From: Flagellimonas okinawensis
GTDB taxonomy: Bacteria > Bacteroidota > Bacteroidia > Flavobacteriales > Flavobacteriaceae
Direction: 5' to 3'
NCBI RefSeq assembly: GCF_029194005.1
Contig: NZ_JARFVA010000001.1
Span: 558,001 to 622,000, forward strand
Length of the DNA stretch: 64,000 nucleotides
Shown: one piece after another, positions 41,355 through 63,363 of the stretch
Numbering within the stretch: position 1 is the first letter of the stretch
Layout: each line of letters starts with the position of its first letter
Notes under the pieces: model-generated
Database searches by the model: none
Seen by the model: only the letters and a program-made list of their open reading frames with translations
What the model was told of the DNA's origin: nothing
Made by a program: the position numbers and the translations under genes

Positions 41355-42110
41355 TTATTCCAACCAAAGCTTAAAGTCCTTCACTCGTTCCCTACTAACA
41401 ATGACTTCGTGCTCATCAAAACGCTTTAATTTGATTTGCAGCCTTGAATTAGTATATGAAATAATATCTCCTATGTGATTGATATTCACATAAAACTTTC
41501 GGCTCACCCGAAAAAATGTTTGTGGTTCCAGCTCCTCTTCCAATTGTTCCAAGGTTGTGTCCAATAAATAATTTCTTCCATCTGAAGTTGCGGCATAAGT
41601 ACCTTTGTTCTCACTGTAAAAACATTCTACCTCATCGGCATTTATAATTTTTAAATGCTGCCCTACCCTAGCTGTAAATCGCTTCTTGTACTCCCTCTCC
41701 AAAGGGTTCACCAAAAGCTTTTTTATGTCGTTGAAATCAATCGGTATTTTTTGATTTTCGGGTTTAAAATTCCGATACTTTTTTACTGCACTTTCCAGCT
41801 CTTCTTCATCGATAGGTTTTAACAAATAATCGATACTGTTCAACTTGAATGCTTGGAGTGCATATTCGTCATAAGCGGTGGTAAAAATGATTGCACTTTT
41901 AACCTCTATGGAATCAAAAATTTCGAAGGAAAGTCCATCCGATAATTGGATGTCCAAAAAGATAAGATCTGGGTGTGGATTTTCTTGAAACCAGGCAATG
42001 GATTCTTCAACGGAATGCAACATTTTAGAGACCTCTATTTCCTGTTCAGAAAGCAATCTGGACAACCTTCTTGCTGCCGGTTTTTCATCTTCAATAATCA
42101 AGACATTCAT
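41355..42110 (-). CDS. LytTR-family response regulator
   Basis: 251 residues: receiver domain (residues 1-115) with phosphorylation site Asp53 in DLIFLDIQLSDGL, acidic pair in IIEDEKPAARR, and Lys in LLKPI; then a LytTR DNA-binding domain (about 145-251, FTARVGQHLKIINADEVECFYSENKGTYAATSDGRNYLL ... VSRERVKDFKLWLE). LytTR regulators bind two direct repeats of a 9-base word about 12 bases apart; two such sites are seen upstream of the cluster. It is the last gene on the strand after the histidine kinase and 2TM genes, and is the natural partner of that kinase. Confidence 0.94.
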   Translation of the reverse strand: MNVLIIEDEKPAARRLSRLLSEQEIEVSKMLHSVEESIAWFQENPHPDLIFLDIQLSDGLSFEIFDSIEVKSAIIFTTAYDEYALQAFKLNSIDYLLKPIDEEELESAVKKYRNFKPENQKIPIDFNDIKKLLVNPLEREYKKRFTARVGQHLKIINADEVECFYSENKGTYAATSDGRNYLLDTTLEQLEEELEPQTFFRVSRKFYVNINHIGDIISYTNSRLQIKLKRFDEHEVIVSRERVKDFKLWLE

Positions 42111-42230
42111 CTATGTATGGTTTGTGTTTTTGGGTTGGTATTTTTACTTGCACCTTTTGTTTTTCAATTCAAAAATGGATCTCCATTCTTTCTGTTTTTA
42201 TCAAAAAAAATGAAACATAATATCAAAGCA

Positions 42231-42566
42231 CTATTTATACTTGTCCACTTTCTCCCGGTCCTCATCCATATATTTTTGGATCTGGCGTTCTTCCCATTTT
42301 TTAAAGAAAGAAATTTTGTTCCTAAAAACGAACAATGTATGAAAAAGCAGGATCAAGACCCAAAGCAAAACATTGGTGTTGATCCAATCGTAGTAGTAAG
42401 ACTCTTTCGGAAATGCTTCTGGCAACAATGCTGTGAGCACTCCGGTTTTTAAAAGGAGTAGGATGCCATTTACAACAACAAAAATTAAAATATGTCGATA
42501 GTACCCTTTTAGTTCTTCTACGCGTTTTTCGGCCCTCTCCCTAGTCGTTTTATTATCCAATCTCAT
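42231..42566 (-). CDS. 2TM-domain protein (fourth of the array)
   Basis: 111 residues, the most diverged stand-alone copy. The N-terminal RERAEKRVEELKGYYRHI helix, two membrane helices (about 25-43 and 60-82) and the C-terminal FFKKWEERQIQKYMDEDREKVDKYK match its neighbours. The loop between the helices is longer than in the other copies (GVLTALLPEAFPKESYYYDWINTN). It starts one base after the stop of the previous 2TM gene, so they are co-translated. The function of the 2TM family is unknown. Confidence 0.85.
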   Translation of the reverse strand: MRLDNKTTRERAEKRVEELKGYYRHILIFVVVNGILLLLKTGVLTALLPEAFPKESYYYDWINTNVLLWVLILLFHTLFVFRNKISFFKKWEERQIQKYMDEDREKVDKYK

Positions 42567-42567
42567 C

Positions 42568-42873
42568 TTACTTAAACTTGTTCATTTCTTCTTTGTCCTC
42601 CTCGATATACTTTTTAATTTGTCTTTCCTCCCAATCCTTGCCCAAAAATGGATTGACCCCAAAGACTCTGGAACCATGAAACATTAATCCAAAGCCCCAG
42701 GCCATAAGGGTAATAAAATGTTCCCAACGCCAAAAATTATCGGTGTGCATATAGATATTGAGCAAGATAAAGGTGTTTATTACAATGTAAACGGCCAAGT
42801 GAATGTAAAACCCCTTGAGTTCATCCACCCTTTTTTTTGCCCGTTTATATTTTTCTTGGCTAAAATTCTCCAT
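42568..42873 (-). CDS. 2TM-domain protein (third of the array)
   Basis: 101 residues from ATG 42873, chosen by analogy with the MEN starts of its paralogs (an ATG at 42885 would overlap the upstream stop). Motif pattern: YKRAKKRVDELKGFYIHL, two hydrophobic helices, WGFGLMFHGSRVFGVNPFLGKDWEERQIKKYIEEDKE. Clearly a paralog of the genes on both sides and of the kinase C-terminus. Confidence 0.88.
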   Translation of the reverse strand: MENFSQEKYKRAKKRVDELKGFYIHLAVYIVINTFILLNIYMHTDNFWRWEHFITLMAWGFGLMFHGSRVFGVNPFLGKDWEERQIKKYIEEDKEEMNKFK

Positions 42874-42875
42874 CA

Positions 42876-43178
42876 CTATTTCCATTTATTGTTTTTCTCT
42901 TCCTCGCTCATAAACTCCTTTATTTTCCTTTCTTCCCATTGTTTACCAAAAAACGGGTTCAAGTTAAATGTTTTTATTGCGTGGAATACAATCCCTATCC
43001 CCCAACCAAAGGCTGCCCATAAAAACCACATATAGGCAAAACCAGTGGTAAAATAATTGATGAGGGCCAGGCCCGAAATCACAATAACGTAAGAAGTAAG
43101 GTTGCCATAGAACTTTTTGAGTTCATCCACTCTCTCGCGAGCCCTTATATATTTACTTTCTTTTTTCGAGTTTTCCAT
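42876..43178 (-). CDS. 2TM-domain protein (second of the array)
   Basis: 100 residues from ATG 43178, again the MENS-type start shared with paralogs; the longer alternative start at 43220 lacks homology. Motifs: YIRARERVDELKKFYGNL, two membrane helices, FGWGIGIVFHAIKTFNLNPFFGKQWEERKIKEFMSEEEK. Short, basic, cytoplasm-facing ends suggest both termini are inside. Confidence 0.88.
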   Translation of the reverse strand: MENSKKESKYIRARERVDELKKFYGNLTSYVIVISGLALINYFTTGFAYMWFLWAAFGWGIGIVFHAIKTFNLNPFFGKQWEERKIKEFMSEEEKNNKWK

Positions 43179-43222
43179 TGTGATGTTATTTGATGTGATG
43201 TTGTAGTTAAAAGTACTCATTC

Positions 43223-43504
43223 TTAAAATTCTTTATCGTTCATAAATTCCTGAATCTTACGCTCTTCCCATCCTTTACCAAGTATAAAATTGTGGCCATA
43301 AGCATTCATCCAATGGCCTACAAGACCTAGCCCCCATCCAATAGCGGGAAATATGGACCATGGTATACCACTGGTCGTTTTATAATTGATATAGACTAAG
43401 GTGGGGATTACAAGACAGTAGGCTGCCAAGTTGTAGTAGAAAGATTTGATTTGCTCCACTCTTTCCTTTGCTCTTGAATAACGTTGTTCTGATGAATTTT
43501 CCAT
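43223..43504 (-). CDS. 2TM-domain protein (first of the array)
   Basis: 93 residues with the motif set RYSRAKERVEQIKSFYYNL, two membrane helices, GWGLGLVGHWMNAYGHNFILGKGWEERKIQEFMND. It is the closest of the four to the 2TM tail of the adjacent kinase. It is the first gene of its own transcription unit: a 219-base gap separates it from the kinase, and this gap holds a LytTR-type operator and a -7 box. The gap has no other gene. Confidence 0.9.
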   Translation of the reverse strand: MENSSEQRYSRAKERVEQIKSFYYNLAAYCLVIPTLVYINYKTTSGIPWSIFPAIGWGLGLVGHWMNAYGHNFILGKGWEERKIQEFMNDKEF

Positions 43505-43536
43505 GATCTGTTCGGTTTTATTTTTTGATTACACTT

Positions 43537-43607
43537 CAAATCTCGCTATACATTCGGGTAAAATGAAAAGTGAATTTCCGAACTGTAATTTTATGAGGAT
43601 GAATTGC
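43537..43607 (-). promoter_or_regulatory. Putative LytTR-controlled promoter of the 2TM array
   Basis: On the minus strand, ACAGTTCGG (43578-43586) fits the LytTR word [TA][AC][CA]GTTN[AG][TG] fully, and GCAATTCAT (43599-43607) fits 7 of 9, with a 12-base spacer. A weak -7 box GAGATTTG (43537-43544, 7 of 8 to TAnnTTTG) lies 33 bases closer to the gene. The same arrangement and spacing recur at 45737-45807. Confidence 0.65.
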
Positions 43608-43723
43608 TAGTTGAAGGGATCAAGGGATATTTCAATGGACGAAAACCATCTATTATAATGGCTTTCACTTAATTTAAAGACACGCTGAAAGTAATTTAAG
43701 AAGGAAGATTAAATCTATATTCC

Positions 43724-45052
43724 CTAGAAATCATCTTTGTCCATGAGTTCTTGAATCTTGCGTTCTTCCCAACGCTTGCCCCATAATGGATTATAACCAA
43801 ATGCAGCCAAACCATGTGCGGTAAGTCCAAATCCCCACCCGAGTGTAGGGAAAAATGCCCAAAGAAAGTCCGTGGTACGAAAATTAAGCCACCATAAAAA
43901 CGGAATTACGATACAGTAGGCCATAAGGTTCCCGTAGAACTCTTTGATGTTTTTCACACGTTCCCTGGCCTTGGCATAACGCTTTTCCTCAATAAAGCTT
44001 TCCTGTGTTTCCAACACCGTATACTTTTGGGTGAGCATAGGTATAAAAACACTAAAGTCCTTTTCAGTTTTTCGAATGACCATTTCTCGGTCGGTCAAAA
44101 TATTATACCGTTGCTTTATGTTCTGTAGGCCGACACCACTACTCTTTTTAACGACCTGCTTTTCCTGGAGGTTGTTGCTCACCACCAACATTCCGTTCTC
44201 TTCGTACACTTTAATGTGCAGGGGTCGCGAAGAGGTAACCACATTGTGTTTAACCGCATTTTCCAACAAAAGTTGAAGCGATAATGGAACTATTTTAGCT
44301 TCTGGCTGTGAACAATTATCGGGGATGTCAAAGATTATACTGTCTTCAAAACGCATTTTGAGCAACCTAACATAGGTTCTAGCGAACTTTAGTTCCTCAT
44401 CCACAGTAACCAAATCTTTGTTCTTTTGTTCCAGCACATACCGGTAAACCTTGGATAGTGATGTGGTGAAATTTTGGGCCTGGTGCGGATCTTCCTCAAT
44501 AAGGCTTGTTAGTACATTGAGACTATTGAACAAAAAATGAGGGTCTAACTGGTTTTTGAGCGCATCGAAACGTGCAGAAGCAGATCCAGCAATAATTTTC
44601 TGCTCCTTAACCTGCTTTTCTTTATAAAATTTATAATAATAGGCCGCATAGAACAAAAGGGCCACTATCATCGCAATTACAAAGGAGGTGTAGTAATCCC
44701 GTGGAGTTTCGTCCAAAATAAATGTACTGAAGCTTACATTATAAATGAACACCTTTAAAACGAAACGGGCCAAGAAGATACCGATAATGGAGGCTACAAT
44801 GTTTCCTAAAATTCCATAACCGATGTATTTACGGGTAAACAGTTCTTTATCGTATTTCCGCATGAGCAAAATAAACGATGCCGCATTACAGAGGTAAATA
44901 ATCATCGAAAACACAATGGTTTCCCAAAAATCTATGGACAATTCCTTGAAGGTAAACTCCCAACCATTGACAAAGTAGATAATAAGGGACACTATAAAAA
45001 TAGCGACCCCTATCAACAATGACTTTAATATTTCCCTTAGTAAGAGTTTCAT
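43724..45052 (-). CDS. LytS/YehU-type histidine kinase fused to a C-terminal 2TM domain
   Basis: 442 residues from ATG 45052 (an upstream alternative frame would overlap the previous gene). Four membrane helices (residues about 11-28, 44-64, 77-98, 121-140), then a His_kinase core with phosphorylated His172 in NQLDPHFLFNSLN, N-box LQLLLENAVKHN (259-270) and G-box GVGLQNIKQRY (306-316). Residues 353-442 are a complete 2TM domain (RYAKARERVKNIKEFYGNL ... GWGFGLTAHGLAAFGYNPLWGKRWEERKIQELM), homologous to the four free-standing 2TM proteins downstream. The kinase therefore has six helices. It should phosphorylate the LytTR regulator of the cluster. It is 7 bases after a periplasmic TPR gene. Confidence 0.93.
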   Translation of the reverse strand: MKLLLREILKSLLIGVAIFIVSLIIYFVNGWEFTFKELSIDFWETIVFSMIIYLCNAASFILLMRKYDKELFTRKYIGYGILGNIVASIIGIFLARFVLKVFIYNVSFSTFILDETPRDYYTSFVIAMIVALLFYAAYYYKFYKEKQVKEQKIIAGSASARFDALKNQLDPHFLFNSLNVLTSLIEEDPHQAQNFTTSLSKVYRYVLEQKNKDLVTVDEELKFARTYVRLLKMRFEDSIIFDIPDNCSQPEAKIVPLSLQLLLENAVKHNVVTSSRPLHIKVYEENGMLVVSNNLQEKQVVKKSSGVGLQNIKQRYNILTDREMVIRKTEKDFSVFIPMLTQKYTVLETQESFIEEKRYAKARERVKNIKEFYGNLMAYCIVIPFLWWLNFRTTDFLWAFFPTLGWGFGLTAHGLAAFGYNPLWGKRWEERKIQELMDKDDF

Positions 45053-45059
45053 TTTTTTA

Positions 45060-45683
45060 TTATTTACCGCAACTGGCCAATACTTCTTTTGCCCTATCTG
45101 CACCCCAAGTCGGGTAAAAGGGTGTTTCGGATTTAAAGGTAGCAAAAAGTTCCAAGGCCTTTTCCACATCTTTACAGTAAGGTGTAGTGTCTTTTCCAAA
45201 ATATCTGGCCGACCCCATATCCCATTCTGCTTTGGAAAGTATTACCCGTGGATTGTTCGGGGCAAGAGCTATCGCTTGCTGGTACAATTGGGCATTTTTC
45301 GGAGAAAGTGTCATGCCATAAGTTGCACCATCAAAAGCGATCCAAGCGGTATTTATAAGTGCTTCCTGTATCAAAAGTTCTGGGTTGTTGGGTGAAATGG
45401 CCTTGGCCACATCTAAAAACTCCTTGGCCTTTTCCAATTGTCCGGTCAATTTATCCTCATCTCGTTCCCCAAAGGAAATTACTGTATTAATCTGTGAAAC
45501 ATAATAATAAGGCAACCACTTATCCGGTTCTGCGGTAGCGATTCGTTCAAACATATGAGATGCTTCTGTGGTTTTTTGGTTTTTCCACAACTCAAAGGCC
45601 CTTTCCATTCCAGTGGAATAGCGGTCCTGCGCATTTGCAAGTGTGGTCCCTAGCAAAACAATGGTTAAAATAAGTTTTTTCAT
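45060..45683 (-). CDS. Periplasmic TPR-like protein upstream of the histidine kinase
   Basis: 207 residues with a signal peptide (MKKLILTIVLLGTTLANAQ). Helical repeats of tetratricopeptide type: RAFELWKNQKTTEASHMFERIATAEPDKWLPYYYVSQINTV and AKEFLDVAKAISPNNPELLIQEALINTAW, plus LYQQAIALAPNNPRVILSKAEWDM. The stop is 7 bases before the kinase start, so it is the first gene of the same unit. It could be a periplasmic accessory of the sensor; this is inference from position. Confidence 0.8.
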   Translation of the reverse strand: MKKLILTIVLLGTTLANAQDRYSTGMERAFELWKNQKTTEASHMFERIATAEPDKWLPYYYVSQINTVISFGERDEDKLTGQLEKAKEFLDVAKAISPNNPELLIQEALINTAWIAFDGATYGMTLSPKNAQLYQQAIALAPNNPRVILSKAEWDMGSARYFGKDTTPYCKDVEKALELFATFKSETPFYPTWGADRAKEVLASCGK

Positions 45684-45736
45684 GACTGCTGTTTTTTGTT
45701 TTTATGATATTGTTTCTGATTGAATTATTGTTGCAG

Positions 45737-45807
45737 CAAAGATGAATTGATAGGGTAGCTTTTTAAAAGAAGGATTACCGAACTGTAAACATTAATGGAT
45801 GAACTGT
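45737..45807 (-). promoter_or_regulatory. Putative LytTR-controlled promoter of the TPR-kinase unit
   Basis: On the minus strand ACAGTTCAT (45799-45807) and ACAGTTCGG (45778-45786) both fit the LytTR word completely, separated by 12 bases. A weak -7 box CATCTTTG (45737-45744, 7 of 8) lies 33 bases further along. The operator would be centred near -60, a typical activator position. Confidence 0.7.
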
Positions 45808-49550: not shown

Positions 49551-51713
49551 CTATAGGTTGTCCAATTGATTACTTTTTTTATCAGTACTGATCGTCCAGA
49601 AGAATCCAACAAAGAAAAAACTATCCGCAGGCGGCGTTACCGCCCTTCTGTTGAATACTCCATTCATGTCCGGTGTATTGGCATATTGGTAATTGCTAAT
49701 ATTATTGATGCTCAACAAATTGCTCACGGAAAAGTATAGGATTTTCTGCTGGTCTATTAAATAGGCCCAATTAAAACTTAAATTATTGTACGACTTGGTT
49801 TTCTCTTGCATAAATCCCTGCGAATTTGGGTTATGGTATGGTCTGCCCGATCCATAAGAATAAGAAAGCCCAACTTGGGAACGGAGCTTATCCACCCAAT
49901 ACTTGGTGACCAAAGATGCATTATGTTTAGGTGCAAAATTTGGGGTGGCCTTCTGAGGAAAGTTTTGGTAATCCCGTTGTGTATCCAAAAAAGAATAGGA
50001 AACCCAATAATCCAAATTAGCAATGCTTTTACTGTCCCGCCAAAAAACGTCTACGCCTTTCGCATATCCATTTCCCATATTATCGTATGTTGAATTGAAT
50101 TGTGGCAAGTCTGTATCAAACTTAACCAACCGATCATAATCCTTGTAGTAAAGTTCAGTTCTAAACGTTTTTCCGTTTTTGATGTATTGATAATTTAAAA
50201 TATAATGCGAGGCTTTCTCCATTTTGAGTTGATTCTCGAATTTTACAACATCGGTTAATGGTCTCTGGTAAAAATCGCCGTACGCCAACGAAAACTGTCC
50301 ATCCTCTCCTGGCTTGTATGCCAAGGAAACCCGTGGCGAAACCTCAAAGCCATCCAATAGGCTACTATGCTCTGCGCGAATGCCCAACTTCATCGCAAAT
50401 TTATTGGACAGGAAAATATCGGATTCTGCAAAGGCTGCGAACAGACCATCGGAATACCCATTATTGAACTCACCCATATCCAAATCGGAATATGTTTCGT
50501 CATATTCGGTCCTGAAATATTCCGTACCAAAACTCAAATCGTACCTGTTACTGAAGTTTTTTCGGGCCTTTACCTTGATATGGGTTGATGTTTCCTTGGC
50601 ATTGAGCTTATCCTGCTCTATACCAATATCATTTGTATCCCAGGCTATGGAGGCCCCAGAGGTCAAGCTCCAATCATTGGCAAAAAAATATTTATAGGAA
50701 GAATTAAAGTACAGGTTATTGTTCTTAAGCTGAAATCGGACAAAATCTTCAAAATTGATATCCTCCTGCTCAATATCCAAATTCGTATGATTGAATCCTG
50801 TATACATTTTGAACATACTATTTTCTCCCTGACTCCTAAAAACAGCTTCTCCCGAAATGGATTCGAATGGACTGTTCCATCGAACCCCTTGCGTGGATGG
50901 AATCAATGCTTCATATGGAGCAAGATTCATATAAGATGTGTTGATGCTCAAAGATTGGTCGCCCCAAATTTCGGTATGCCCCACACCTCCACCTACGCTC
51001 ATAATGGATATATCCGTCTTTTCCTGCAGTGGTACATCGGTAGTATTCAATAAAAGCACACTGGACAAAGCTTGACCATACTCCGCAGAATACCCCCCTG
51101 TACTAAAGGAAATTCCTTTAAAAAGAAATGGAGAAAACCGTCCACGGGTAGGTGAATTGTTCGGTGTGGCATTAAAGGGTTGAAAAACACGCAATCCATC
51201 AATAAAAACCTGGGTCTCGCCTGCGGTCCCACCCCTCACAAACAAACGCCCGTCCTCGTTAACCGCGGAAGTTCCCGGCAACGTCTGTAAAGCTGCTACA
51301 AAATCACCTGCAGCTCCGGCAGTGGTTACAATGTCCATGGGTTTTAATACAGATACCTTGGAATTATCCCCGGCCTCAAATGTACCGGCAGTCAAGGTTA
51401 CGCCCGATAAAGAGTTAACGGATTCTATCAATCTAATTTGGAGGTCTTTAAAGTAGGACACATCCCCTGCCTCATAATGGGGCTCGTAGGACAATATAGA
51501 AACGATAAGTGTTTGCAAACCCTCCTCGGAGGTCTCGAAACTAAAATTTCCATTGGCGTCGGAGGAAGCTCCATCGTATGTGCCTTCCAAATATATATTG
51601 GCCCCTTCAATTGGATTGTTCTTTGCGTCTGTTACCCTACCGGATATGGTCTGCTGTGACATTACAATTCCGGTACTTAATAATAATGTGATTAGGTTGA
51701 TGATGATTTTCAT
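49551..51713 (-). CDS. TonB-dependent receptor
   Basis: 720 residues from ATG 51713 (MKIIINLITLLLSTGIVMSQ signal peptide); an ATG at 51740 adds 9 residues that spoil the signal. N-terminal carboxypeptidase-like domain (ISGRVTDAKNNPIEGANIYLEGTYDGASSDANGNFSFE), then the plug (LPGTSAVNEDGRLFVRGGTAGETQVFIDGLRVFQPFN) and the 22-stranded barrel with the final strand ending FFFVGFFWTIS. It imports a large substrate such as a siderophore or glycan oligomer. No SusD partner is adjacent, so a siderophore/cobalamin-type substrate is more likely. Confidence 0.93.
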   Translation of the reverse strand: MKIIINLITLLLSTGIVMSQQTISGRVTDAKNNPIEGANIYLEGTYDGASSDANGNFSFETSEEGLQTLIVSILSYEPHYEAGDVSYFKDLQIRLIESVNSLSGVTLTAGTFEAGDNSKVSVLKPMDIVTTAGAAGDFVAALQTLPGTSAVNEDGRLFVRGGTAGETQVFIDGLRVFQPFNATPNNSPTRGRFSPFLFKGISFSTGGYSAEYGQALSSVLLLNTTDVPLQEKTDISIMSVGGGVGHTEIWGDQSLSINTSYMNLAPYEALIPSTQGVRWNSPFESISGEAVFRSQGENSMFKMYTGFNHTNLDIEQEDINFEDFVRFQLKNNNLYFNSSYKYFFANDWSLTSGASIAWDTNDIGIEQDKLNAKETSTHIKVKARKNFSNRYDLSFGTEYFRTEYDETYSDLDMGEFNNGYSDGLFAAFAESDIFLSNKFAMKLGIRAEHSSLLDGFEVSPRVSLAYKPGEDGQFSLAYGDFYQRPLTDVVKFENQLKMEKASHYILNYQYIKNGKTFRTELYYKDYDRLVKFDTDLPQFNSTYDNMGNGYAKGVDVFWRDSKSIANLDYWVSYSFLDTQRDYQNFPQKATPNFAPKHNASLVTKYWVDKLRSQVGLSYSYGSGRPYHNPNSQGFMQEKTKSYNNLSFNWAYLIDQQKILYFSVSNLLSINNISNYQYANTPDMNGVFNRRAVTPPADSFFFVGFFWTISTDKKSNQLDNL

Positions 51714-51924
51714 GACTGTTCGTTTTGTTTGACAGGACAAATTTGCCCCAGTACTTTAGGCCAAACCAAAACGAAATACCCAATTGTAGTTTTTAATAGC
51801 TGAATTGAACTAGAAATCTCAGTTTGCAGTTCACTCCAAAAAATCGACATTTCGGTAGTAATGAATTTTTAAAATGGATTGACTTCCAGAATTTTGGAGC
51901 ATACAAACATCAAAAACAAACATT

Positions 51925-52344
51925 ATGAAAACTGTTACACTAGCTTTAAGTTTCTTATTTGTAAGTATTGTTGCCATGGCACAAGAAAAAACCGGAGTAG
52001 ACATCATCGTTACCATTGATAACATTACCAGTAACGAAGGAAATATTCTAGCGGGGCTCCATACCGCTGAAACATTCATGAAAGGACCTGGTATTCAAAA
52101 TACGCAGAGTAAGATCGAGGATGGAAAAGTAATCCTTACGTTTACCAATGTAGTTCCAGGAGATTATGCCATCATGGCTTTGCACGATGTTAATGAGAAC
52201 AATCGTATGGATTATCAATCGAACGGTATGCCAAAAGAAAGTTATGGTATGTCCGGGAACGATATGACATTGGGCCCACCCGATTTTAAAAGTGCAATGT
52301 TCACCGTTGGCGATGAAAATTTGGAAATGAGCATTCGATTCTAA
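51925..52344 (+). CDS. DUF2141 domain-containing secreted protein
   Basis: 139 residues with a signal peptide (MKTVTLALSFLFVSIVAMAQ) and DUF2141 features: DIIVTIDNITSNEGNILAGLHTAETFMKG, VPGDYAIMALHDVNENNRMDYQSNGMPKESYGMSGN. The NENNRMDYQSNGMPKE segment is the most conserved part of the family. Unknown role; relatives are secreted beta-rich proteins. It diverges from the TonB-dependent receptor and ends at a strong terminator. Confidence 0.88.
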   Translation: MKTVTLALSFLFVSIVAMAQEKTGVDIIVTIDNITSNEGNILAGLHTAETFMKGPGIQNTQSKIEDGKVILTFTNVVPGDYAIMALHDVNENNRMDYQSNGMPKESYGMSGNDMTLGPPDFKSAMFTVGDENLEMSIRF

Positions 52345-60429: not shown

Positions 60430-60759
60430 ATGAACATAGAAAACACAAAAGCACAAATGCGCAAGGGGGTTCTGGAGTATTGCATCTTGTCCATCCTAAA
60501 GGATGATGACAAGTATGCCTCAGAAATTCTGGAAGCCTTGAAAGACGCAAAGATGTTAGTAGTGGAAGGTACCATATACCCTTTGCTCACAAGGCTTAAG
60601 AACGCCGGATTGCTCAACTACCGTTGGGAAGAATCCACATCGGGACCACCCCGTAAATATTACGCGCTCACCGAAACAGGCCAGTTGTTCCTTAACGAAC
60701 TCAACGGCACCTGGGACGAACTAAGAAATGCAGTCAATCTGGTAACCAACACAAAATAG
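60430..60759 (+). CDS. PadR-family transcriptional regulator
   Basis: 109 residues: MRKGVLEYCILSILKDDDKYASEILEALKDAKMLVVEGTIYPLLTRLKNAGLLNYRWEESTSGPPRKYYALTETGQLFLNELNGTW is a complete PadR winged helix with the short C-terminal helix. It starts the cluster PadR-PspC-head GIN, 9 bases before the PspC gene, and most likely represses or senses for it. Confidence 0.93.
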   Translation: MNIENTKAQMRKGVLEYCILSILKDDDKYASEILEALKDAKMLVVEGTIYPLLTRLKNAGLLNYRWEESTSGPPRKYYALTETGQLFLNELNGTWDELRNAVNLVTNTK

Positions 60760-60768
60760 AATCAAAAA

Positions 60769-62511
60769 ATGAACAAGACAGTAAATATAAATCTAGCAAA
60801 TACGCTCTTCCACATAGACGACGATGCGTATAACAAGCTGAGACGGTACCTGGAGTCCATAAAGCGCTCCTTTTCCGGTACCAAGGGAAGCGACGAGATC
60901 ATTGCCGATATAGAGGCCAGGATTGCCGAGCTCTTTCTCGAAAAAATGGAGAACGAACGCCAAGTGATCACACATAAAGAGGTTGATCAAGTAATCGACG
61001 TAATGGGACAACCCGAAGATTACATGGTGGACGAAGACATTTTTGAGGACGAACCCCAAAAGAGACATTCGGAACCAACATCTGCCAAGGCAAAAAAACT
61101 GTATAGGGACATCGACCACAAATATATTGGTGGTGTCTGTGCCGGTTTAGAGCATTATTTAGGAATAGATGCACTATGGATTAGGCTTATTTTTATCCTA
61201 TTGGCCGTATTTACCAGTGGTTTTGGACTTATTGCCTATATCCTATTATGGATATTGGTTCCCGAGGCCGCCACAACCTCCCAAAAATTGGATATGCGGG
61301 GGGAGCCCGTCAACATCAGCAATATAGAACGCAAAGTTAAAGAGGGGTTTGATGATGTTGCGGACAAAGTAAAAAGCGTTGACTACGAAAAAGTGGGCAA
61401 CAAGGTCAAAAGCAGCTCCAAGACCTTTTTTGATACCATCGGGGATATTATACTGTTCCTGTTCAAGGTATTTGGCAAATTCATTGGAATACTATTGATC
61501 ATTATCGGGGCAGCGACCTTGGTAGGCCTATTCTTTGGTCTGTTCACCGTAGGTATGTTCGATGCTGTTCATGTGCCCGGCGTAGATTTCTATGAAATTG
61601 TAAACACCTCCGGAGCACCGGTTTGGGTAGTATCCATCTTGTTGTTCTTTGCCGTGGGTATTCCGTTCTTCTTCTTGCTTTACTTAGGCTTGAAGATATT
61701 GGTCACCAACTTAAAATCCATCGGAAACATTGCCAAGTTTTCCTTATTGGGTCTTTGGTTGATTTCCATAGGACTATTAATGTACTTTGGAATCCGACAG
61801 GCAGCCGAATTCACTTTTACGGGCAGTGTAAATGATAGCAAGGAATTGGTTATGGAAGTGCCTTCCGATACCTTGATCATTACAATGAAGGAAACCGACA
61901 TGGATTGGGACCGAGATGAAATTCATTTTGGTAGAATGACCTTTGGTTATGACGAAAACGACAACCGTATTTTAATGTCCGATGACATCGATATCAAAAT
62001 TCGAAAGTCGGACACAGATTCCATACGTGTCAATGTTAGAAAAGATGCCGATGGCAGTTCTACACCTGCAGCTCGCGACCGTGCAAGAAACATAGCATAT
62101 ACCTACACGGTTGATGGTAATGAAATGGTACTCGATAAATTTTTGACCACGGATATATCGAACAAAGCAAGAAACCAAGAGGTTACGGTAACCATTTATG
62201 TTCCCGAGTCCAAAACGGTTTATTTTGATGATTCCACAAGCAGATACATTGGAAGAGGCATAGACAACGACCAAGGTTTTTACAGAAGTGGCATGGCTGG
62301 CCAATACTGGTTGATGAATGACGACGGGGAGTTGCAATGTTTGGATTGTCCTGAAGATGACGACGATGACGACGATTCCAATGGTAAAGGCAAAATTATT
62401 ATCAACGAAGATGGTATAGACATCAACATTAAGGACGACCAAGATTCATTTGAAATGAAAATCAACGAAGATGGCGTAAAAGTTAAAGCCAAAGAAAAAA
62501 GTAACAATTGA
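60769..62511 (+). CDS. PspC-domain membrane protein
   Basis: 580 residues. An N-terminal helical domain (residues 1-105) rich in charged residues with VDQVIDVMGQPEDYMVDEDIF; then a PspC domain (about 110-170, KKLYRDIDHKYIGGVCAGLEHYLGIDALWIRLIFILLAVFTSGFGLIAYILLWILVPE), several further membrane helices (about 225-350), and a large extracytoplasmic domain, ending in an Asp-rich/Lys-Glu tail (DCPEDDDDDDDSNGKGKIIINEDGIDINIK). The domain order resembles Bacteroidota PspC proteins that pair with PadR and head GIN proteins. Envelope-stress role is inferred by family. Confidence 0.88.
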   Translation: MNKTVNINLANTLFHIDDDAYNKLRRYLESIKRSFSGTKGSDEIIADIEARIAELFLEKMENERQVITHKEVDQVIDVMGQPEDYMVDEDIFEDEPQKRHSEPTSAKAKKLYRDIDHKYIGGVCAGLEHYLGIDALWIRLIFILLAVFTSGFGLIAYILLWILVPEAATTSQKLDMRGEPVNISNIERKVKEGFDDVADKVKSVDYEKVGNKVKSSSKTFFDTIGDIILFLFKVFGKFIGILLIIIGAATLVGLFFGLFTVGMFDAVHVPGVDFYEIVNTSGAPVWVVSILLFFAVGIPFFFLLYLGLKILVTNLKSIGNIAKFSLLGLWLISIGLLMYFGIRQAAEFTFTGSVNDSKELVMEVPSDTLIITMKETDMDWDRDEIHFGRMTFGYDENDNRILMSDDIDIKIRKSDTDSIRVNVRKDADGSSTPAARDRARNIAYTYTVDGNEMVLDKFLTTDISNKARNQEVTVTIYVPESKTVYFDDSTSRYIGRGIDNDQGFYRSGMAGQYWLMNDDGELQCLDCPEDDDDDDDSNGKGKIIINEDGIDINIKDDQDSFEMKINEDGVKVKAKEKSNN

Positions 62512-62640
62512 GACCCTTAATTCGTCAATTCAGTAAAGCATTATTTAAAACACACATATAAAAACAGACATTTGAACTGATTTTAGTATCAGTAATCATC
62601 AAATTATTTTTCAAAATCAATCAATAGTAAAACAACAATC

Positions 62641-63363
62641 ATGACAACACTAGCAAGATTAGCAATCGCCGCACTCCTATCCCTCTTTGCATCCTCATGC
62701 ATGATGGATATGAACTTCGGCAACGGAAAAACAGGTAACGGCGAAATCGTAGAGGAAAGCCGCGACGTAAAAGAGAGTTTTGACATCGTTTCTGCATCCG
62801 AAGGTATCGATGTATTCGTAACCCAAGGTTCTGATTTTAAAATTTCTGTGGAGGCCGATGAAAACATCATAGACCTTATTGGAACAGATGTTAAAGACGG
62901 TAGACTAAAAATCCACGCCATTGAGAATATTGGGCGTGCCACTAAAAATGTATATGTTACCCTACCGGAGATCATTGCTTTGGAAAGTTCTAGTGGTGCC
63001 GACCTTATCGCTCAAAATGTCATCAAGGCAGAAAATATTGAGTTAGATGCCAGTAGTGGTGCCGACCTTCATGTAGAAGTAGTTGCCAGAGAAGTATCTG
63101 CCGATGCCAGCAGTGGTGCAGACATTAAGGTATCCGGGCAGGCCGATGCCCTTTTTGCCGATGCCAGCAGCGGTTCGGATATCAAAGCTCAGGATTTGAC
63201 CGTAAAAAGATGCAATGCAGACGCCAGTAGTGGTGCAGATATCTCCGTAAATGTATCGGAGTCGCTTGTAGCAGATGCCAGTAGCGGAGCAGATATAAGG
63301 TACAGTGGCGATGCCAGTGTAGAAACAAAAAAATCGGTTTCTGGCAGCGTTCGTAAATATTAA
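62641..63363 (+). CDS. Head GIN domain (DUF2807) lipoprotein
   Basis: 240 residues with a lipoprotein-type leader (MTTLARLAIAALLSLFASSC). The DUF2807 domain shows VKESFDIVSASEGIDVFVTQGSDFKISVEADENIIDLI and, from residue 110 on, at least six copies of (D)ASSGAD spaced by 18-21 residues, the rungs of a beta-helix. Surface or envelope protein, third gene of the PadR-PspC cluster. The function of head GIN proteins is not established. Confidence 0.9.
   Translation: MTTLARLAIAALLSLFASSCMMDMNFGNGKTGNGEIVEESRDVKESFDIVSASEGIDVFVTQGSDFKISVEADENIIDLIGTDVKDGRLKIHAIENIGRATKNVYVTLPEIIALESSSGADLIAQNVIKAENIELDASSGADLHVEVVAREVSADASSGADIKVSGQADALFADASSGSDIKAQDLTVKRCNADASSGADISVNVSESLVADASSGADIRYSGDASVETKKSVSGSVRKY

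Follow-up and report, generated by a model that had tools for sequence, protein, structure and literature searches.

The locus raises the question of why a sensor histidine kinase that ends in a 2TM domain (PF13239) is encoded beside four free-standing 2TM proteins and a LytTR response regulator, and what these small proteins do. The architecture, its conservation, the operator, the regulon with its promoter geometry and the unfused form occurring in another order were computed, starting from the window, i.e. the whole stretch of 64,000 nucleotides analysed. The reading we prefer, with slightly better than even confidence, is that induced 2TM proteins reset the kinase of a self-regulating envelope two-component system.

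All genes of the locus lie on the minus strand, at the positions given in the initial annotation, as was confirmed. The first gene of the kinase operon encodes a TPR-like exported protein of 207 aa (45060..45683). Its TPR matches in Pfam barely reached their cut-offs (25.0 for a cut-off of 25 and 23.7 for one of 23.5), and a distant PDB relative was found in 6bqs (PG_2227, E 3e-8). The kinase gene (43724..45052) encodes 442 aa comprising N-terminal helices, a PF06580 core and the C-terminal 2TM domain (residues 361-438; 43739..43972). Its start was taken as the ATG, since a reading frame begun at the listed TTG (45199) would reach into the TPR gene. Downstream lie 2TM-1 (43223..43504), 2TM-2 (42876..43178), 2TM-3 (42568..42873), 2TM-4 (42231..42566) and the regulator gene (41355..42110). 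For 2TM-2 a longer start is possible at 43220. The tight spacing described earlier was found between the TPR and kinase genes (7 nt) and within the array (44, 2 and 1 nt), but not between kinase and array (219 nt) or array and LytTR gene (120 nt). Since a predicted promoter with an operator sits in the 219-nt gap, the locus is predicted to be two transcription units, TPR-kinase and 2TM array-LytTR, and a single unit was rejected on the same ground. In the other f1 genera and family f5 (40 loci), kinase and array are mostly close together, and a site between them was present in only 4 loci.

The kinase carries the His_kinase domain PF06580 at residues 160-238, above the curated Pfam cut-off, and its N-terminal helices probably form four transmembrane segments. 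Residues H172, N265, G306 and G308 were among the columns invariant across 53 aligned kinases; from their family roles, we take them to be the conserved histidine and the ATP-binding motifs. The core matched the solved histidine kinase 6swj (E 3.9e-15, residues 167-292), and no match in PDB searches with the kinase, the regulator and the TonB receptor described below covered the 2TM tail. In the structure model of the kinase (pLDDT 74, pTM 0.41) the tail was not placed against the other helices. Members of the LytS subfamily have an N-terminal 5TM LytS sensor domain. The original designation "LytS-type" holds for the catalytic domain, but no LytS sensor domain was reported by the Pfam scan at E ≤ 0.1. 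The kinase-core tree was poorly resolved at depth and the counts of its table were left unused; its row L095_par1, called a paralogue, looks like the fused kinase of L095.

The regulator contains Response_reg and LytTR domains, both above the curated Pfam cut-offs, and its receiver matched many solved receivers in the PDB search. The best NCBIfam models were BtsR and LytR; equivalence to either was rejected, the scores being far below the cut-offs (112.5 against 246 and 103.8 against 375, respectively). Together, kinase and regulator possess the elements of a PF06580 plus LytTR two-component system, namely the conserved histidine, the ATP-binding motifs, the receiver and the LytTR domain.

A new LytTR-type operator, ACARTTCATCC-N10-ACARTTCGG, with repeats 21 bp apart, was found before five promoters of the window. 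That of the TPR-kinase operon (45778..45807, minus strand) is predicted as ACAGTTCATCC-N10-ACAGTTCGG (PWM 45.9), with the -7 box CATCTTTG at 45737-45744. The predicted operator of the 2TM array-LytTR operon (43578..43607, minus strand; PWM 43.6) is accompanied by GAGATTTG at 43537-43544. This site at the array promoter strengthens the earlier view of the 2TM proteins as putative targets. Two further predicted operators precede a TonB-dependent receptor gene (CarboxypepD_reg, Plug, barrel; 49551..51713, minus strand) and a gene for a DUF2141 exported protein (51925..52344, plus strand), both predicted regulon members. The former site lies at 51779..51808 on the minus strand (PWM 22.6; -7 box CAAATTTG at 51738-51745) and the latter at 51826..51855 on the plus strand (PWM 20.2; -7 box GAATTTTG at 51889-51896). 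A weaker predicted site (62504..62533, plus strand; PWM 19.7; -7 box GACATTTG at 62567-62574) makes a DUF2807 (head GIN) gene (62641..63363, plus strand) a probable member. The window holds a PadR-PspC-DUF2807 block, of which one gene has the operator. The TonB receptor gave no PDB match at E ≤ 0.001.

In the whole-genome scan, the two best sites (0 and 1 mismatch) were the two operon promoters. A gene for 309 aa that follows the site at G000 C10:11055 may be a further regulon member. Exact matches in 36 genomes of the genus numbered 37, against 1 for the reversed-pattern control; 32 precede TPR, array, TonB or DUF2141 genes, 2 more stand before the kinase by position, and 3 lie at no known regulon gene. 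In 41 genomes of a second genus, 23 of 24 exact matches precede TPR, TonB, DUF2141 or kinase genes and one is at no known regulon gene (control 0). Among scored copies in the genus, the operator was kept before TPR (17/20), TonB (17/19), DUF2141 (16/18) and DUF2807 (6/8), while the neighbour-gene controls gave 0/20 for FMN, 0/14 for LysR and 0/11 for PspC. It also precedes the array in 75 of 77 kinase-array gaps of near relatives, a count that is partly circular, as are all operator counts at mapped loci, because the matrix was trained on sites from the same loci. The exact matches, the neighbour-gene controls and the -7 box counts are less circular. At 217 of 233 non-redundant sites, the motif.A..TTTG, which lies outside the matrix, occurs at a distance of exactly 63 nt, counted from where the first repeat begins, i.e. 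a Bacteroidota -7 box at one fixed distance. On the operator evidence, the array is very probably an autoregulated output. From position, conservation and family geometry we infer that the operator is that of the LytTR regulator. In family f5 the operator was found upstream of 6/20 kinase or TPR genes and in 0/20 kinase-array gaps, and 40 genomes of one f5 genus held only 4 exact matches.

The initial annotation took a lack of joint conservation of fusion and array as refuting its reading, and no such lack was observed. The fused kinase, one to nine small 2TM genes and the LytTR gene occurred in all 111 mapped loci with room downstream, in two families; 10 other mapped loci end within 2 kb of the kinase. 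By these gene maps, the arrangement is old and is not a product of chance. Within a sample of the order, 59 genomes gave any 2TM match, and by hand count the fused kinase is present in 54 of them. The nearest kinase relative in another order lacks the fusion, and its gene directly follows a separate 2TM gene; 2TM, unfused kinase and regulator genes were adjacent in 5 of 7 loci over the cut-off. In a one-way search, the unfused kinase of L274 found the fused kinase as the best match in the window genome (161.8 vs 68.4 bits). The operator was present at four of the five places and absent at the fifth (L275, best score 3.9). A TPR homologue is also found there (L274, L277 and L278; 26-29% identity over the full length). 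Because a 2TM gene precedes the unfused kinase in that order, fusion-type evidence suggests that 2TM and kinase act together.

A further arrangement was observed in L311, where TonB, TPR, DUF2141, kinase and LytTR genes form one same-strand run, so that a relative of the TonB receptor of the window shares a run with a kinase. Immediately ahead of the kinase genes of L311 there is a DUF2141 gene; in L314 one lies two genes ahead of them. L311, L312 and L313 yielded no operator with a score above 10. The L311 genome has no 2TM match and keeps the kinase, LytTR, TPR, TonB-type and DUF2141 genes, so that 2TM is accessory and dispensable for the core of the system.

The five 2TM domains scored well above the curated PF13239 cut-off of 24.8 bits, with 98.4, 106.9, 94.1 and 74.7 bits for 2TM-1 to 2TM-4 and 98.7 bits for the kinase tail. 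Their alignment showed 15 invariant columns, 14 of them inside the domain, in good agreement with the motifs first noted as common to tail and small proteins. 2TM-1 is of a tail-like class, forming a clade with kinase tails (99/97), and 2TM-4, which has a long loop, is of the most divergent class by alignment and tree. Many array members fall in old classes spanning genera, and a recent tandem duplication was rejected on this tree. Of the four array classes, three have diverged far from the tail and so need not act in the same way. Free tail-like copies probably arose more than once, although the statistics are weak. A single origin of kinase tails was weakly rejected (p-AU 0.034 on 106 columns, with many unresolved forks), which is suggestive. 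The structure model of 2TM-2 had a pLDDT of 83. Sequence-profile searches for solved relatives of 2TM gave nothing credible (best E 0.99), nor did Foldseek give a match at E ≤ 0.001. As first stated, no function was described for PF13239 in the open-licence literature searched. In the parts of these articles that were available, PMC9723704 mentions neither LytTR nor 2TM, PMC5395568, PMC10057207 and PMC6801697 treat LytTR in general terms without 2TM or DUF2141, and the "2TM" of PMC9425974 is another thing under that name.

The preferred mechanism would be a two-component system that resembles LytS/LytR and serves the cell envelope, presumably the thing sensed, and in which the regulator turns on the two operons of the system itself. 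With its N-terminal helices and its 2TM domain as membrane anchors, the kinase would phosphorylate the LytTR regulator. This would then bind paired 9-bp repeats, which are 12 bp apart and stand 10 bp ahead of the -33 region, and would activate, rather than repress, the five promoters. The induced 2TM proteins may join the kinase in the membrane via its homologous tail and change its output, most likely, judging by analogy, by damping, as an induced brake or set-point. We tentatively propose, at a little under even confidence, that the array supplies separately encoded, regulator-induced, interchangeable subunits of the kinase's own tail, that 2TM proteins constitute a previously undescribed class of membrane proteins that tune kinases, and that the mix and number of array classes set the gain and adaptation of the sensor.

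Alternatively, the 2TM proteins may be effectors that protect or remodel the inner membrane, the kinase tail being only a sensor module of the same type that responds to the same state of the membrane, and feedback running indirectly through the repaired membrane. Their encoding as operator-controlled output beside other envelope proteins fits this explanation, as does the entry of membrane-protein genes into the array operon of other genomes (an ICMT/PEMT-type methyltransferase gene in L153, L154, L159 and L160; a DUF2306-like membrane-protein gene in L129). The old, divergent classes suggest distinct jobs, and 2TM domains are found without a kinase as well, e.g. in fusion with dihydrofolate reductase. 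However, the fusion and the 2TM gene before the unfused kinase argue for direct action on the kinase, and the probable repeated origin of tail-like free copies also speaks against the effector explanation, which we consider unlikely.

It is improbable that the 2TM proteins act instead on the regulator and tether it to the membrane, in the manner of LytTR Regulatory Systems: those systems lack both the receiver and the kinase partner that this regulator has, and 2TM is fused to the kinase, not to the regulator. Such tethering would suit the position of the LytTR gene, which comes after the array at each of the 111 loci with room downstream, and operon plan and repeat geometry match those in the available part of PMC6193735. 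The variable copy number, from 1 to 9, could also point to neutral tandem duplication, with the tail a plain membrane anchor. Against this stand the old, genus-spanning paralogue classes, the retention of at least one free copy in those 111 loci and the operator in 75/77 near-relative gaps (partly circular), which make it very improbable.

Through this locus, PF13239 is linked with one particular kinase, one particular operator and a small regulon common to several Bacteroidota lineages, and a reporter placed behind a known promoter now offers a way to test 2TM function. The predicted regulon places a TonB receptor, together with uncharacterised DUF2141 and TPR proteins, under common control. 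If the brake model is true, the sensor receives its feedback from induced copies of one of its own domains; a kinase-tuning subunit, if true, would be the first function for PF13239.

Among known systems, LytS/LytR and BtsS/BtsR consist of a PF06580 kinase with a LytTR response regulator. The present locus is alike in both components, but no LytS sensor domain is recognised in its kinase, which ends in a 2TM tail and is accompanied by a set of free 2TM proteins. With LiaFSR/phage-shock-type systems, as presented in the available part of PMC11237479, it shares small membrane proteins, a kinase and a regulator in one envelope system; in contrast, no locus protein matches PspC or LiaI-LiaF-TM (Pfam), and PspA/LiaH was absent from the Pfam matches of the proteins scanned. 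The available part of PMC6193735 describes autoregulated LytTR operons in which 9-bp repeats with a spacing of 12 bp lie about 10 bp ahead of the -35. LytTR Regulatory Systems (HdrRM, BrsRM) resemble the locus in the LytTR regulator and membrane protein of one operon, in direct-repeat geometry and in autoregulation, predicted here from sequence (PMC6193735). As presented there, they are without the kinase and phospho-receiver found here, their membrane inhibitors are DUF3021/DUF2154 or others rather than 2TM, and the membrane domain is, unlike here, not also fused to a kinase. The Bacteroides "LRS-like" operons of that source, with NfeD/DUF2154 proteins and a membrane-bound LytTR, are likewise different. 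Because of its receiver domain and kinase, the locus is not classed as a LytTR Regulatory System, though it may work like one.

The minus strand of the window carries a TPR-like exported protein (45060-45683), a kinase with a C-terminal 2TM domain (43724-45052; PF06580 plus PF13239), four free 2TM proteins (2TM-1, 43223-43504; 2TM-2, 42876-43178; 2TM-3, 42568-42873; 2TM-4, 42231-42566) and a LytTR response regulator (41355-42110). The closest in-locus relative of the kinase tail was 2TM-1 (53% identity), the other three free proteins showing 46, 39 and 29%. The tight spacing described in the initial annotation held inside the array (gaps of 44, 2 and 1 nt) and between the TPR and kinase genes (7 nt), but not between kinase and array (219 nt) or between array and regulator (120 nt). 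The sole PDB relative of the TPR protein at E ≤ 0.01 was PG_2227 (6bqs, "hypothetical protein", E 3e-8). An extra 2TM gene of this 4.02 Mb genome lies on another contig (C9, L005) and overlaps a dihydrofolate reductase-like gene by a few bases. An actual 2TM-dihydrofolate reductase fusion was seen in L268 (3407-4324; Pfam run on this copy) and in L269 and L272; the membrane-tethered reductase that it implies would be odd, and testable.

Relatives of the kinase in the named genome collection reached 93% identity and probably place the window genome in the Flagellimonas/Allomuricauda (Muricauda) group. A 2TM match was found in 59 of 196 genomes evenly sampled from the order, 57 of them exceeding the curated cut-off. 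A fused kinase (2TM match within a reading frame 437-535 aa long) was present in 54 of the 59, a hand count of rows with G130 added from a separate search, and these kinases fall in two families, f1 and f5. The refuting outcome named in the initial annotation, fusion and array not conserved together, did not occur in the mapped loci. Of 426 relatives in the named collection the best 80 were mapped; with the window and 40 further stretches (20 from each family) this gave 121 loci, all picked for a fused kinase except L141, which was picked for a free copy and carried the fusion too. In all 111 with downstream room, one to nine free 2TM genes were followed by the regulator; in the remaining 10 the contig ended within 2 kb. 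Four free copies were commonest in near relatives (45/71). The regulator was split across two frames in L057 and L062, and other genes intervened between kinase, array and regulator in some loci of both families. Four f5 loci (L153, L154, L159, L160) hold a 189-190-aa membrane methyltransferase between the first and second free 2TM gene (ICMT/PEMT type, by Pfam on the L159 copy). L130 has a 496-aa multi-pass gene between array and regulator, resembling by eye an ArnT/PMT-type glycosyltransferase. DUF2306-like membrane proteins turn up repeatedly: next to the kinase (L314, 6160-6804), between array and regulator (L129) and next to a solitary 2TM gene (L259, 3992-4498).

In near relatives the kinase-array gap contains a direct repeat, ACAATTCATCC-N10-ACAGTTCGG, with a period of 21 bp, and the same element lies upstream of the TPR gene. 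LytTR sites are described as paired 9-bp repeats spaced 10-13 bp apart (PMC11347149), or as repeats that are typically spaced by 12 bp and placed 10 bp ahead of the -35 element (PMC6193735); the predicted operator fits this geometry. Within one mismatch only these two places matched in the window genome, while two mismatches gave 26 further matches against 13 for the reversed pattern. A matrix derived from 87 distinct sites scored 45.9 (TPR-kinase), 43.6 (array), 22.6, 20.2 and 19.7 in the window; one value in 3.84 Mb of base-shuffled window sequence exceeded 8 (10.4). Among 81 near-relative loci, sites above 15 occurred upstream of the TPR/kinase genes in 63/81 and in the kinase-array gap in 75/77, counts that are partly circular because these same loci supplied its training sites to the matrix. 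The corresponding figures were 12/20 and 4/20 for other f1 loci and 6/20 and 0/20 for f5, with a background of 1 in 265,418 positions of kinase coding sequence. The gap of L046 contains about 1 kb of repeat DNA coding for STLNPQP again and again, with the operator retained. Since an operator precedes it, the 2TM array is very probably an output of the system.

The window's three lower-scoring sites precede genes for a TonB receptor, a DUF2141 protein (divergently transcribed) and a DUF2807 protein; in relatives, several of their counterparts are strong. The DUF2807 gene belongs to an envelope-stress-like block (60430-63363) that also encodes a PadR regulator and a PspC/Toast-rack protein; it comes last there and alone has a LytTR-type operator. 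In the window and 20 of 35 genus-mates, counting the copies that were located within 20 kb and given a score, upstream scores exceeded 15 for TPR (17/20), TonB (17/19), DUF2141 (16/18) and DUF2807 (6/8), and for none of the neighbouring control genes (FMN-binding 0/20, LysR 0/14, PspC 0/11). Each of the three TPR genes without a site had a DUF2141-like gene with a site directly upstream; L294 held none of the four genes within 20 kb. Exact genome-wide matches numbered 37 in the 36 genomes of the genus (at least one in 25/36; reversed-pattern control 1). By protein comparison 32 precede TPR, array, TonB or DUF2141 genes, two precede the kinase by position (G027 C122, G006 C186) and three lie elsewhere. 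In a second genus 19 of 41 genomes had an exact match (control 0), and 23 of 24 matches precede TPR, TonB, DUF2141 or kinase genes. Only four were found among 40 genomes of an f5 genus, two of them (L246, L247) before similar genes; Pfam identifies that of L247 as an alpha/beta-hydrolase. The window genome also has a site at C10:11055 (L183), in front of a 309-aa gene whose only match was a weak one to lipase, below the cut-off. These hydrolase-type genes and the 309-aa gene are possible further regulon members.

In 217 of 233 non-redundant sites scoring above 17 (314 before thinning), the motif.A..TTTG follows at exactly 63 nt, counted from where the first repeat starts, in a stretch outside the matrix; the reverse-complement control reached at most 15 in any one position. 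TAnnTTTG is given as the flavobacterial -7 box in PMC9723704. The C10 site and every one of the five window sites have the box, five of these six without its first T, as would fit activator-dependent promoters.

L311, from another family of the order and from a genome that gave no 2TM match, has a TonB-type receptor (Pfam CarboxypepD_reg plus Plug), a TPR homologue, DUF2141, an unfused kinase and a LytTR regulator in one same-strand run. L314 groups DUF2141, the DUF2306-like protein (under the cut-off), kinase and regulator with two sites (32.9, 18.0), and in L312 and L313 a TonB-type barrel gene lies close upstream of kinase and regulator. Control may differ in L311, L312 and L313, since the matrix scan gave no site above 10 there. 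We read the core as the kinase-LytTR pair with the TonB, TPR and DUF2141 proteins, and 2TM as an accessory of some lineages; in f1 and f5 it would have been joined to the kinase and multiplied.

In another order, 2TM matches were found in 9 of 60 genomes, seven exceeding the cut-off. In five of these seven loci (L274, L275, L277, L278, L279) the 2TM gene is directly followed by a kinase without the fusion and by a response regulator. The LytTR part of the regulator lay within the DNA covered only in L261, a longer stretch around L279; L276 and L280 lacked this arrangement. A TPR homologue (26-29% identity over full length) lies upstream in L274, L277 and L278, each preceded by a putative operator (41.7, 40.4 and 17.0); in L261 one precedes 2TM (28.2), and the scan found none in L275 (best 3.9) or L276. 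In a one-way comparison, the best match of the L274 kinase in the window genome was the fused kinase (161.8 bits; next 68.4). 2TM is thus encoded separately beside the kinase in one order and joined to it in the other. By the standard fusion argument, it most likely acts on the kinase itself.

A tree of 168 2TM domains, drawn from 37 of the 121 loci and seven rows from outside, was built on 106 columns; many of its forks are weak. It placed many array members in old classes spanning genera. One clade (support 99/97) unites 17 kinase tails and 13 first free copies and covers 17 loci around Allomuricauda and Maribacter. The kinase-tail clade of f5 (100/98) has four free copies nested inside it. 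Given this placement and the weak rejection of a single clade of all tails (p-AU 0.034), the tail-like free copies probably had multiple origins or underwent conversion.

The 2TM-2 model has a long helix (2-45) and two further helices (52-70, 78-99; pLDDT 83, pTM 0.57), and a fold search with the 2TM model gave no match at E ≤ 0.001. In the kinase model (pLDDT 74, pTM 0.41) a single continuous helix (349-393) leads from where the catalytic domain ends into the first TM helix of the tail, so the membrane tail might, tentatively, be stiffly coupled to the ATP-binding domain.

No description of this system was found in the open-licence literature on the 2TM domain/PF13239, on DUF2141 or on flavobacterial LytTR with TonB and histidine kinase; domain databases may show the kinase-2TM fusion as such. 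The best reading is an envelope two-component system that would induce itself, the induced 2TM proteins using the kinase's 2TM tail to join it and reset it. The main rival explanation casts the 2TM proteins as effectors in the membrane, with the tail as a matching sensor. Contact of the free proteins with the kinase is favoured because of the fusion evidence. Under the self-inducing reading, the 2TM proteins would most likely act as a brake, by analogy with LytTR Regulatory Systems, in which the membrane protein inhibits (PMC6193735).
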